A stretch of 9,695 nt of DNA from Patescibacteria group bacterium (GTDB lineage Bacteria; Patescibacteriota; Microgenomatia; UBA1400; MFAQ01). The position numbers were made by a program, and so were the translations under genes. The notes under the pieces were generated by a model. The model saw only the letters and a program-made list of their open reading frames with translations. It did no database searches and was not told where the DNA came from. This document shows, in pieces, positions 1-5,262 of this stretch (the first letter of the stretch is position 1; every line of letters starts with the position of its first letter). The stretch lies in contig JAHITH010000102.1 in assembly GCA_018817845.1 (NCBI GenBank), forward strand, positions 1-9,695, read 5' to 3'.

Positions 1-51
1 GAACAAATTCTCTGGATGCTAGGCATCAACCCCGAAACCCCCAAATCCTAA
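1..51 (+). CDS. 3' end of an unidentified gene (partial)
   Basis: An open frame runs in from the left edge and ends at TAA (49-51), giving the residues EQILWMLGINPETPKS. The C- and A-rich codon choice (CCC, ACC, ATC, AAC) resembles the other + strand genes here. It converges with the glycosyltransferase gene, and the two stop codons overlap by two bases. Sixteen codons are too few to identify a family, and an open frame of this length could arise by chance. The exact fit between its stop and that of the convergent gene is the main support. Function unknown. Confidence 0.4.
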   Translation, partial: EQILWMLGINPETPKS

Positions 52-851
52 CACCTACAAGGTCTCACCTTGAAGGTTTCCTTGTACACCTTCCACGGAA
101 ACATCACCATTGCCCTAAAAATCCTTGGTAACCTTTTGGGCTGCACCAGCAACCGCCACACAGCCTTTAGTCCCCGCTTCTCCATCCACTTAGGCGCTCT
201 AGCAAACTCGCCCAACACTTCATTAAACGTCCCACCCACCCCAATAGCAACTTTAACACCCAGTTTCCTTCTATTATTCTCAATCCACTTAATTTGATTC
301 ACCGGACCATAAACCACAAATAATACGTCCGGAGCAAACTCATTAATCTTTTTTAACACTTCTTCATTCCTCTTTCCAGTATTTTCTTTCCAGTCTTGAC
401 CACCAGGATCAGACTCTACTCGCAAATTTTTATATCTTTTCTTAAGCACCATCTTTAATCTATGAGACGCATCACCTTTTTCTCCCAGCAAAAACACCTT
501 CCAACCTTTTTCGGCCGCCAACCTTACCAGCTCCTCAAACAACCACACCCCCGTCACCGGCTGTCCCAGTTCACCCCTTAACCCCTTTAGCCCCACTCCA
601 AGACCATCAAACAACCCTTTCTTCCCCCTCTTATACTCCATCGCCGCCAACACCCCTACTCCATCAGGCACAACCAAGTCCGCCTTCTCCACAGCTTTCC
701 TAAATACCTTGTCCTTCTCCGCCGCCAACAAAAACTCACTATATATAGTAACCACATGCTTCAAACTCCCTTTTCCGCCTACCCAGCCAGAGATCTTCTC
801 TATCGCCTCCTGCCTATTTACCTCGTCTACTTCTATTCCCAGTATCTTCAT
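48..851 (-). CDS. WecG/TagA/CpsF-family (GT26) glycosyltransferase, divergent active-site motifs
   Basis: This family transfers N-acetyl-mannosamine(uronic acid)-type sugars from UDP-sugars to lipid-linked acceptors in teichoic acid, enterobacterial common antigen or capsule synthesis, on the cytoplasmic face of the membrane. Visible family signatures are the VVPDGVGV segment (residues 60-67), the KVFLLG strand (118-123), PDVLFVV (174-180), GVGGTF (204-209), ARAPKW (217-222) and the basic RLLVQPKR stretch (233-240). The length of 267 residues is normal to slightly long. Several usually invariant positions differ: Tyr37 where T-x-N usually has Asn, Asn210 where GGTFD has Asp, and GPVNQI (182-187) where GAPKQE is typical. 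Asp63 of PDG, the proposed general base in TagA, is kept. The last nine residues (TFKVRPCRC) are encoded by a REP palindrome. The start is ATG at 851, with a possible AAAGG ribosome site and a -10 box just upstream. Family assignment is firm; the substrate is unknown and activity uncertain. Confidence 0.85.
   Translation of the reverse strand: MKILGIEVDEVNRQEAIEKISGWVGGKGSLKHVVTIYSEFLLAAEKDKVFRKAVEKADLVVPDGVGVLAAMEYKRGKKGLFDGLGVGLKGLRGELGQPVTGVWLFEELVRLAAEKGWKVFLLGEKGDASHRLKMVLKKRYKNLRVESDPGGQDWKENTGKRNEEVLKKINEFAPDVLFVVYGPVNQIKWIENNRRKLGVKVAIGVGGTFNEVLGEFARAPKWMEKRGLKAVWRLLVQPKRLPRIFRAMVMFPWKVYKETFKVRPCRC
53..77 (+). repeat. REP palindrome copy 1 (RAYT-associated family A)
   Basis: A 25-base imperfect palindrome with left arm ACCTACAAGGT, loop CTC and right arm ACCTTGAAGGT. 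The arms pair except for one A-A mismatch. It is identical to the copy at 4480-4504. It lies within the 3' end of the glycosyltransferase gene, where it is translated, and begins two bases after the stop of the convergent gene. It could form a hairpin in either transcript, but no T-tract follows to suggest an intrinsic terminator. Confidence 0.9.
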
Positions 852-1461: not shown

Positions 1462-1490
1462 TTTTAACAAAGGTCTCACCTTTGTTAAAA
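1462..1490. repeat. Perfect hairpin with 13-base arms, related to REP family A
   Basis: The arms TTTTAACAAAGGT and ACCTTTGTTAAAA are exact reverse complements around a CTC loop. The core AAGGT-CTC-ACCTT is the same as in the RAYT-associated palindromes and has the same orientation, while the outer arms differ completely. This suggests a related element whose outer arms co-evolved to stay paired. In RNA it would form a very stable stem. Confidence 0.8.
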
Positions 1491-4479: not shown

Positions 4480-4504
4480 ACCTACAAGGTCTCACCTTGA
4501 AGGT
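4480..4504 (+). repeat. REP palindrome copy 2
   Basis: The full 25-base element, identical to copy 1. It begins three bases after the PEGA stop and ends 26 bases before the RAYT start. Its right arm supplies TTGAAG (4497-4502), a possible though short-spaced -35 box for the RAYT promoter. Confidence 0.9.
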
Positions 4505-4523
4505 TGACTAAATCCTCTATAAT
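4497..4523 (+). promoter_or_regulatory. Putative RAYT promoter
   Basis: A perfect TATAAT at 4518-4523 ends 7 bases before ATG 4531, predicting an essentially leaderless transcript. The best -35 candidate is TTGAAG at 4497-4502 with a 15-base spacer, inside REP copy 2. If real, the REP would drive its own transposase. Confidence 0.45.
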
Positions 4524-4530
4524 ATTAATT

Positions 4531-5157
4531 ATGCCTGCCAAAAACATAGTTAAGGAATACCAATCCGGTGGCTACTACCACATATACAACCGCGGAGTTG
4601 AAAAAAGAGATATTTTTCTAGACGAACAAGACTACAAAACTTTCCTCTCCTACCTCAAATTTTATCTCTCTCCACCCCTACAAGGTCTCACCTTGAAGGT
4701 GAAGACACCGCCATCCAGACAATTAAGAAACCATGCAGAAACCATAGATCTTTTTAGTTACTGCTTAATGCCAAACCATCTCCACCTAGGAGTCCAACAA
4801 CACACTCAAAAAGCCATCGCTTCTTTCATGCAGTCCCTGGGCACAAAATACTCTACTTATTTTAATAAAAAATATGACCGGGTCGGTAGTTTATTTCAAG
4901 GATGTTATAAAGCAGTTAGAATAAAGTCAGAGGAACAACTCATTTATCTCACTAAATATATCCATCTTAATCCGCCAAACATCAACAACTACCCTTACTC
5001 AAGCTACGGCAATTACTTAGGAAAATTCAATCAAACCTGGATTAATACATCTACTATTCTTTCCCGCTATCCAAACAACCCACATAAAAGATACCAATCA
5101 TTCGTCGAAGAAAGCGATTTGAACGAAAAAACTACCCAGTCTTTCTCCCTCGACTAA
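4531..5157 (+). CDS. REP-associated tyrosine transposase (RAYT, Y1/HUH family)
   Basis: RAYTs are IS200/IS605-like HUH nucleases that cut and join single-stranded DNA at REP palindromes. This 208-residue protein has the family N-terminus YYHIYNRGVEKRDIF (15-29), the metal-binding HUH motif in CLMPNHLHL (His83 and His85), RVGSLFQGCYKA (117-128) and the likely catalytic Tyr143 in LTKYIHLNP. Arg is usual in place of Cys125. The key catalytic residues are present, so it may be active. Residues 49-57 (PLQGLTLKV) are encoded by a copy of its own REP, in the variable loop before the HUH strand, with the frame kept. I chose ATG 4531 rather than a TTG at 4504: homology begins with MPAKNIVKEY and a TATAAT lies 7 bases upstream. 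The gene converges on tRNA-Arg and tdk. Confidence 0.9.
   Translation: MPAKNIVKEYQSGGYYHIYNRGVEKRDIFLDEQDYKTFLSYLKFYLSPPLQGLTLKVKTPPSRQLRNHAETIDLFSYCLMPNHLHLGVQQHTQKAIASFMQSLGTKYSTYFNKKYDRVGSLFQGCYKAVRIKSEEQLIYLTKYIHLNPPNINNYPYSSYGNYLGKFNQTWINTSTILSRYPNNPHKRYQSFVEESDLNEKTTQSFSLD
4676..4700 (+). repeat. REP palindrome copy 3, inside the RAYT gene
   Basis: 24 of 25 bases match copies 1 and 2; the first base is C instead of A, as in copy 4. It lies in frame within the RAYT coding sequence, encoding residues 49-57, with no stop codon. It is in the same orientation as the other three copies. Confidence 0.9.
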
Positions 5158-5160
5158 CCC

Positions 5161-5185
5161 CCCTACAAGGTCTCACCTTGAAGGT
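5161..5185 (+). repeat. REP palindrome copy 4, abutting tRNA-Arg
   Basis: Shares the first-base C variant with copy 3. It starts 3 bases after the RAYT stop and ends one base (5186) before the CCA end of tRNA-Arg on the opposite strand. For the tRNA transcript it is the first downstream hairpin and could affect 3' processing or termination, though no T-tract follows. Confidence 0.9.
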
Positions 5186-5186
5186 A

Positions 5187-5262
5187 TGGTGCTCCAGACA
5201 GGATTCGAACCTGTGGCCTACGCGTTAGGAATGCGTTGCTCTATCCCCTGAGCTACTGGAGC
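5187..5262 (-). tRNA. tRNA-Arg (anticodon CCU)
   Basis: The - strand folds as a standard cloverleaf: acceptor stem GCTCCAG/CTGGAGC, D stem GCTC/GAGC, anticodon loop TTCCTAA with anticodon CCT (reads AGG), T arm ACAGG-TTCGAAT-CCTGT, discriminator A and encoded CCA (76 bases). The last anticodon-stem pair (31-39) is an A-C mismatch. The tRNA begins 20 bases downstream of the tdk stop, so the two are probably cotranscribed. Confidence 0.95.

Follow-up and report, generated by a model that had tools for sequence, protein, structure and literature searches.

Repetitive extragenic palindromes (REPs) and REP-associated tyrosine transposases (RAYTs) form co-evolving pairs in E. coli, S. maltophilia and Marinomonas (Corneloup et al. 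2021, PMC8266576). Such RAYTs bind and cut the REP as a single-strand hairpin, and irregularities of the loop and stem together with GTAG decide recognition. Among the TnpA-Y1 transposases classified by Quentin et al. (2018, PMC6006769), subclass 2.4 (RAYT group 4) has REPs in frame within tnpA, generally between HuH and Y. Subclass 2.1 (RAYT group 1) ranks second in size among the Y1 subclasses, and that paper reports no REP-like sequences at its genes by automatic or manual search. Palindromes in frame in housekeeping genes, including truB and tRNA synthetase genes, are known as Rickettsia palindromic elements and as intragenic CGTC and GTAG REPs (PMC3733652, PMC10969869). Here, we analyzed a RAYT gene and its palindromes in a 9,695-nucleotide (nt) stretch of DNA from a Patescibacteria group bacterium (GenBank assembly GCA_018817845.1, contig JAHITH010000102.1). 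The whole stretch is called the window; it is contig 98 of a 718-kb assembly, labeled G000.

The window RAYT has its own palindrome on both sides, in frame inside its gene and in frame in other genes. This is a real RAYT/palindrome system, undescribed in the literature searched, for which overwriting is a testable proposed mechanism. Judging from sequence comparison, it is rather probable that the RAYT copies its palindrome onto the sites of older palindromes.

By its motifs, the window RAYT resembles subclass 2.1: FQ instead of W, a Y[IV]HLNP-type Y-motif and the SS tail are present in both. The HUH motif of subclass 2.1 is tabulated as NHVH or NH[YF]H (PMC6006769), whereas the window protein has NHLH, which is not among the tabulated motifs; its relatives mostly have NHFH. 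As in subclass 2.4, palindromes are present on both sides of the gene and in frame within it. However, the REPs of subclass 2.4 carry GT[AG]G at the foot, in some cases at both ends, and this foot is absent here. The internal REPs of subclass 2.4 generally lie between HuH and Y, whereas the internal palindromes found in our case lie before the HUH motif or after the Y-motif and none between them. Furthermore, subclass 2.4 has the motifs WQ and YIxNNP and the window protein has FQ and YIHLNP, which places it outside subclass 2.4.

RAYT and palindrome co-evolve here as in the E. coli, S. maltophilia and Marinomonas pairs. In those pairs recognition can depend on bases of the loop, and the variable centre of our palindromes suggests the same here, but their REPs carry the GTAG motif, which our palindromes lack (PMC8266576). 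The location in frame in housekeeping genes is common to the Rickettsia elements and the intragenic REPs. The CGTC elements reportedly have no transposase of their own (PMC3733652, PMC10969869), whereas the element described here has a cognate RAYT, whose gene contains a copy of it.

The literature searched, outside which lie most subscription journals and preprints, yielded no paper on REPs of Patescibacteria RAYTs. It contained no REPs for subclass-2.1-like RAYTs, no internal sites outside the HUH-Y interval and no concerted change of four copies. No swapping of slots in host genes was found there beyond a remark on recB in PMC3733652. The original prediction, made from the letters of the window, suggested an undescribed RAYT/REP pair. 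In this literature, the suggestion stands for the present clade; in-frame REPs in RAYT genes as such are already described for subclass 2.4 (PMC6006769).

The window RAYT and its palindrome

The unit and its parts are as follows.

4480..5185, + strand: unit of palindrome, RAYT gene and palindrome; the same site in the sister genome G001 has a different RAYT and different palindromes.
4480..4504, + strand: upstream copy (UP), 26 nt 5′ of the RAYT start codon; it matches the internal and 3′ copies.
4531..5157, + strand: RAYT gene, 208 amino acids (aa); PF01797, 5e-10.
4676..4700, + strand: internal copy (S1), in frame in the RAYT gene at aa 49-57, reading LQGLTLKV; relatives have their own palindromes at the same place.
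5161..5185, + strand: downstream copy (DN), 3 nt past the RAYT stop codon and 1 nt before the tRNA-Arg gene.
53..77, + strand: dispersed copy at the C-terminal end of the tagA open reading frame (ORF), in frame; on the - strand it reads TFKVRPCRC.

The protein possesses the HUH motif NHLH (aa 82-85), FQ (122-123), the Y-motif YIHLNP (143-148) and SS (157-158). N82, H83, H85, F122, Q123, Y143, N147, P148, S157 and S158 are invariant across 18 members of the clade. The NCBIfam equivalog model NF047646 matched with 36.6 bits, below its curated 80-bit cut-off; the protein is distant from this curated RAYT model. A predicted structure was obtained with a pLDDT of 89.7 and a pTM of 0.85. In a search of the PDB, the single window protein sequence had no match, and the profile search gave weak matches only (best 0.01; 4er8, 0.11). 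Therefore, the predicted fold was needed for a structural match. The top solved structure for the predicted model was 4er8, the E. coli RAYT-REP complex (E=4.6e-6, 13% identity). The predicted model has the fold of a Y1 HUH nuclease with the HUH and Y---NP motifs. S1 falls in a predicted coil between the helix at 32-46 and the strand at 72-79. By Pfam, neither a helix-turn-helix nor a DnaA-like C-terminal domain was found in the window protein. G000 contains five RAYT matches, and the other four are 34-52% identical to the window RAYT; thus, several near-identical transposase copies, as in IS200/IS605, are not present.

The four 25-nt copies vary at base 1 only, as had been claimed from the letters of the window. 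When up to three mismatches were allowed, the palindrome was not found in 200 dinucleotide shuffles of the window. The arms ACCTACAAGGT and ACCTTGAAGGT enclose a CTC loop, and 10 of the 11 positions are paired (9 of 11 in both copies that start with C). The window copies are thus near-perfect and not perfect palindromes, and copies on contigs C2 and C34 are perfect across at least the inner 10 pairs.

The genome-wide counts below are from pattern searches. In G000, the core AGGTCTCACCT occurs 20 times and the backward pattern does not occur. Ten sites belong to the window family, ACCTNCAAGGT-CTC-ACCTTGNAGGT, with variable first and last bases. The other ten belong to a second (sister) family, TTAAC[AC]AAGGT-CTC-ACCTTTGTTAA, which has one member in the window:

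1464..1488, + strand: sister-family palindrome TTAACAAAGGTCTCACCTTTGTTAA, with the centre AGGTCTCACCT of the window family and other arms; its family flanks the RAYT of contig 90 in G000.

The window RAYT is flanked by the window family and the contig-90 RAYT by the second family. The gene is flanked by its own REP family and further copies are present in the genome, as expected of a RAYT/REP pair (REPtron). The restriction of the palindrome to the RAYT and tagA, which the original prediction had stated, is true of the window, but the genome has ten sites of the family. A GT[AG]G sequence lies directly at the hairpin foot in only 4 of 130 distinct contexts on either strand, and these palindromes are not canonical GTAG REPs. 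This agrees with the earlier remark that the element looks different from the classic REP. The flanks show a preference for A at -1 and otherwise no conserved bases.

Pairing of RAYT and palindrome across loci and genomes

We compared 140 RAYT loci, a non-random set mostly from Patescibacteria. They came from a similarity search (30), from RAYT regions hand-picked from the same list (40) and from the best 80 of 569 matches. A protein of at least 140 aa was present in 149 of these 150 loci, and 140 were left after removal of those with identical first 40 residues; a few near-duplicates remain. Among the best 80 of 569, record titles were mostly Patescibacteria with many Microgenomates lineages, and a few were Dehalococcoidia, Spirochaetia, Gastranaerophilales or just "bacterium".

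Matched UP and DN palindromes (agreement at 18 or more positions) were detected in 91 of the 140 loci. In the control, the upstream and downstream sides were taken from different loci, and 63 of 2100 such pairs matched. The motifs of subclass 2.1 were all present in loose form in 93 loci (the strict form, NH[FY]H with Y[IV]HLNP, in 47), and 65 of these 93 had matched palindromes. Of all 140 loci, 91 have matched palindromes here, whereas subclass 2.1 is reported without REPs in PMC6006769. A copy inside the RAYT gene, with at least 80% identity to the palindrome of the locus, was found in 57 of the 91 loci; with foreign palindromes, similar ones being skipped, the count was 5 of 878. All 75 internal copies are at one of two sites, S1 (about residues 48-63, before HUH) or S2 (5-12 residues C-terminal to the Y-motif Tyr), and 18 loci have both. 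In L252 and L284, in which one motif was unrecognised, the place was judged from the residue number.

The copies of one locus change together. In the window clade (31 loci; L064 and L106 were dropped as near-duplicates, leaving 18-25 usable loci per site pair), the central 5 nt were identical within the locus for UP-S1 in 19/21, UP-S2 in 21/25, UP-DN in 20/24, S1-S2 in 18/19, S1-DN in 16/18 and S2-DN in 20/22. The agreement was 83-95% within a locus and 6-11% between loci. For every site pair, none of 10000 permutations reached the observed similarity, with two evidently misplaced UP picks (L062, L067) kept in. For instance, L117 has ACTTCAGGTAGAGTACCTGAAGT and L104 has CCTTCAAGGACAGACCTTGAAGG at all four sites, on one strand or the other.

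Conversion of the RecA type, which homogenises the copies after mutation with no role of the RAYT, would also give concerted change of the copies of one genome. However, the homology is just 23-25 nt, and the flanks share nothing beyond the A preference. Furthermore, paralogous RAYTs within one genome differ in their palindromes; G043 has five such RAYTs and G031 has four, and some of the palindromes share the centre but not the arms. We regard this explanation as very improbable. An origin of the palindrome as a transcription terminator or another RNA hairpin unrelated to the RAYT would fit the hairpins of suitable size beside gene ends at 4480 and 5161. It leaves the in-frame copies in the middle of genes unexplained, and it is the sequence, beyond structure alone, that tracks the RAYT lineage; we give it almost no weight. 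No Rfam family matched the window at the gathering score beyond two tRNAs, and an RNA family was rejected.

Palindromes of another make flank the more distant RAYTs L093, L098, L100, L101 and L127, for example TTCCACCTCGGAGGTGGAA. Thus, the pairing extends beyond the window clade. In G000, L091 (C13, 500-2700) is a RAYT with its own palindrome, TGACAAGGACCGTCCCTGTCAG, between two tRNA-Leu genes that are 70 and 27 nt away.

The original prediction called for a search of the genome and its relatives, and further copies were found in both; the palindrome is therefore not confined to the locus. The same-genus genome G001 has a RAYT of the contig-90 type. In G001, an assembly 86% complete, the search found no window-clade RAYT, and the best match had 49% identity. 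Its 15 core sites comprise 11 of the strict second family, 1 of the strict window family and 3 of neither. A generic form of the palindrome, CCTNCRRGGNNNNNCCYYGNAGG, was detected in 21 of the 89 relatives, at 1-37 sites per genome; the backward control was detected in none. It was found in 15 of the 15 genomes that have a window-clade RAYT (best E <=1e-58) and in 6 of the other 74 (G001, G004, G015, G019, G042 and G061).

Across 373 genomes of the class, at least three generic sites were present in 11 of 52 genomes with a close RAYT (E <=1e-50) and in 1 of 321 without one. At least one site was present in 12 of 52 and 10 of 321, respectively. In these counts "without" means without a close RAYT, not without any RAYT, and both E cut-offs and the three-copy threshold were set post hoc. 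Abundance in relatives that lack a RAYT, named beforehand as evidence against the pair, was thus not clearly seen at these thresholds, with the exception of G019. The G019 copies listed have the centre TTACA, which is common to RAYTs of the same family in G030 and G038. The RAYT may have been lost from G019 while the copies stayed.

Copies away from RAYT genes also follow the RAYT. Among those listed, 75 dispersed copies from 11 genomes were compared with the RAYT palindromes of their own genome, and 45 matched in the centre (permutation mean 10.1, maximum 38 in 20000). Genomes with no sampled RAYT palindrome, such as G001, G004, G019, G094 and G211, were excluded; one G009 copy counted as dispersed sits about 0.6 kb behind a RAYT. 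With PF01797, the best structure 4er8 and a palindrome that follows the RAYT lineage, the prediction of a RAYT with its own REP family is supported.

Control of the RAYT by hairpins in its own gene and mRNA is another reading, in which selection matches the four copies and the spread is incidental. The copies lie around and within the RAYT gene and vary with the lineage of the protein, and hairpin control of IS200 transposases is mentioned in PMC3733652. However, matching copies in unrelated host genes and different units at one site are left unexplained, and we consider this reading improbable.

In four genomes, 21 of 28 dispersed copies examined (32 listed) lay in frame within an ORF of 80 aa or more. 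This includes the host of the copy at 53-77:

48..851, - strand: glycosyltransferase gene of the WecG/TagA/CpsF family (tagA); PF03808, 2.9e-36.

Further copies in other genomes were in such an ORF in 11 of 18 cases, and three of these ORFs are short (81, 90 and 145 aa). Hence the palindromes are not extragenic in the strict sense of the term REP. The hosts of copies include cysteinyl-tRNA synthetase (cysS), TruB, peptide deformylase, MiaA, histidyl-tRNA synthetase, a DNA polymerase III delta-type subunit, an amidase and glycosyltransferases. Leucyl- and arginyl-tRNA synthetases, YchF, a Mur ligase and a Y-family polymerase were added, partly from the further genomes. Three host ORFs of G020 have no Pfam family and are weaker evidence of coding. 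The cysS matches of G019 (C17) and G006 (C16) carry internal stop codons (2 TGA and 1 TAA), which may reflect either errors in sequencing or gene decay.

Proposed replacement in place

The reading frames of the internal copies number 4/29/3 at S1 and 10/5/24 at S2, so that all three frames are used at each site. Thus, the encoded peptide is not what is kept; it is probably a by-product tolerated in surface loops. The three frames at S1 and S2 across clades also suggest that some independent insertion happened.

A host-gene slot in which the palindrome appears to change in place is found in TruB. It consists of the 7 residues before the conserved VxVxCGSGT, which read LQGPTLK, LQGPTLQ, LQVEYLK, MKVTNLH, FKGLSLK and others. 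In 50 of the 70 closest homologs, the slot can be encoded by a perfect palindrome, compared with 48 of 16775 other windows of the same proteins. There are 26 different slot peptides of this kind, of which TKLKELR is probably in a shifted register, and the slot length is kept in most aligned homologs. At the DNA level, G020 has CCTTCAAGGTTTATCCTTGAAGG and G043 has CCTGCAAGGTCCAACCTTGCAGG at the same position and in the same frame. A loop of peptide deformylase varies similarly in the close homologs P0121-P0134 (LQGLTLK, LQGASLK, PQGTSLK and others), with LQGxxLK in 7 of 39 aligned homologs, including the protein of the window genome. To judge by these sequences, the loop is perhaps a second slot like that of TruB.

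Seven dispersed G000 copies were compared with G001. Two were common: one in the C32 glycosyltransferase and one at a C9 site with a paired difference (T..T in G000, G..C in G001). Three have another repeat at the same place in G001, and two had no ortholog match. In the G001 orthologs of cysS, the delta-type gene and tagA, a palindromic repeat of the GATTC..GAATGACG type is at the place of the G000 copy. It resembles the CGTC REPs described in PMC3733652.

The RAYT unit itself differs between the two genomes. Between 1803 and 4476, a stretch that reaches to the PEGA stop codon, the window has 96.5% DNA identity with G001; the identity is 97.5% again from the right-hand neighbor:

5187..5262, - strand: tRNA-Arg (CCT) gene, beside the unit in both G000 and G001.

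Between them, the RAYTs have 39-44% aa identity, and the palindromes differ at both ends. On sequence grounds, this difference is compatible with an exchange of units, by transposition or recombination, and with two separate arrivals. According to PMC6006769, units of this kind do not seem to move as a whole by transposition.

In the proposed mechanism, the RAYT, a predicted single-strand HUH/Y1 nuclease, would bind its own palindrome as a folded single-strand hairpin. Since the palindrome centre tracks the RAYT lineage and GT[AG]G is absent, we infer that RAYTs of the window clade read the hairpin itself. By analogy with E. coli-type RAYTs (PMC8266576), strand-specific cleavage and joining would act at existing palindromes, and a new palindrome of about equal length would replace the old one. 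Because the lengths are equal, the reading frame would survive, which would explain the persistence inside housekeeping genes. Overwriting would also account for the concerted change and for the constancy of the frame in TruB and at the S1 site of the clade. A broader form of this proposal, which we offer tentatively, is that each new RAYT lineage might rewrite the existing palindromes in its own gene, at its borders and in the housekeeping slots with its own palindrome of the same length, the frame never being shifted, and that whole units might swap at the palindrome borders.

The main rival is ordinary RAYT/REP transposition, in which palindromes are inserted de novo, repeatedly, and survive in just a few tolerant loops with no overwriting. 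Several observations agree with it. S1 lies in a predicted coil, the sites in cysS and the deformylase are in length-variable stretches, and the three frames found at one and the same RAYT site suggest several independent insertion events. In other systems, REPs have been described within truB, tRNA synthetase and recB genes, and those in recB occupy approximately the same site in two species (PMC3733652). However, the S1 copies found in the clade keep one alignment place and one frame while the palindrome changes, and the TruB slot keeps its length in most homologs over the 26 peptides. With de novo insertion, doubled elements or gaps would be expected. We therefore consider de novo insertion alone unlikely, though less so than the other rivals, and prefer overwriting.

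Several results weigh against overwriting or limit its reach. Same-site exchange could instead represent repeated insertions into a few tolerant loops. At the thresholds used, 49 of the 140 loci have no matched flanking pair, and 34 of the 91 matched loci have no internal copy. The window RAYT itself lacks S2, the position of which would be in a predicted coil after the Tyr-bearing helix. The GT[AG]G foot, a guide for known RAYTs, is absent. Thirty of the 75 dispersed copies listed match no RAYT palindrome sampled in their own genome. Of the 52 class genomes with a close RAYT, 40 have no match to the generic pattern, as would be expected if their palindromes differ, and G019 has seven generic palindromes with no RAYT match at E up to 1e-3. 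Of 1000 randomly chosen places in the same stretches, 909 fell in an ORF of at least 80 aa, compared with 20 of 27 copies. The dispersed copies are thus not enriched in genes; they do not prefer genes but merely do not avoid them, as a strictly extragenic element would. Among the next 50 TruB homologs, the anchor was present in 17, of which 4 were perfect. The rows of the TruB slot are at the protein level except two, and the homologs are related by descent. Finally, an empty site from which to read the insertion length and target duplication was sought in G001 for five host genes (cysS, the delta-type gene, tagA, peptide deformylase and hisS), and none was clean: three sites contained other repeats, and two genes had no ortholog match.

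If this clade belongs to subclass 2.1, our results provide a likely substrate for that subclass, and its specificity can be deduced from the 91 matched RAYT-palindrome pairs. They also offer a natural setting in which to test whether one mobile palindrome can replace another in place. Such replacement would explain the in-frame palindromes of housekeeping genes, namely the Rickettsia elements and intragenic REPs, as equal-length swaps and not as lucky insertions. In the small genomes of Patescibacteria, which have little intergenic room, frame-safe spread would benefit the element. If overwriting is true, mobile DNA turns over inside essential genes and the frame is never shifted.

Neighboring tRNA genes and repeats

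tRNA genes were considered as general integration targets and rejected, since pairs of a RAYT and a tRNA gene within 120 nt number 8, in 7 of the 140 loci.

The window contains a second class of palindromes, with a GTCAT foot and stems of 7-8 bp, which are CGTC-REP-like and lie between genes at 872, 1934, 3167 and 6673 (+ strand) and at 1988 and 6737 (- strand). Palindromes of this kind lie in frame in those G001 genes that carry the window family in G000, and the GATTC..GAATGACG-type repeat occurs at several places between genes of the window. In addition, a 52-nt direct repeat, 90% identical, is present at 1391-1442 and 1757-1808, in the long intergenic stretch between tagA and mreB.

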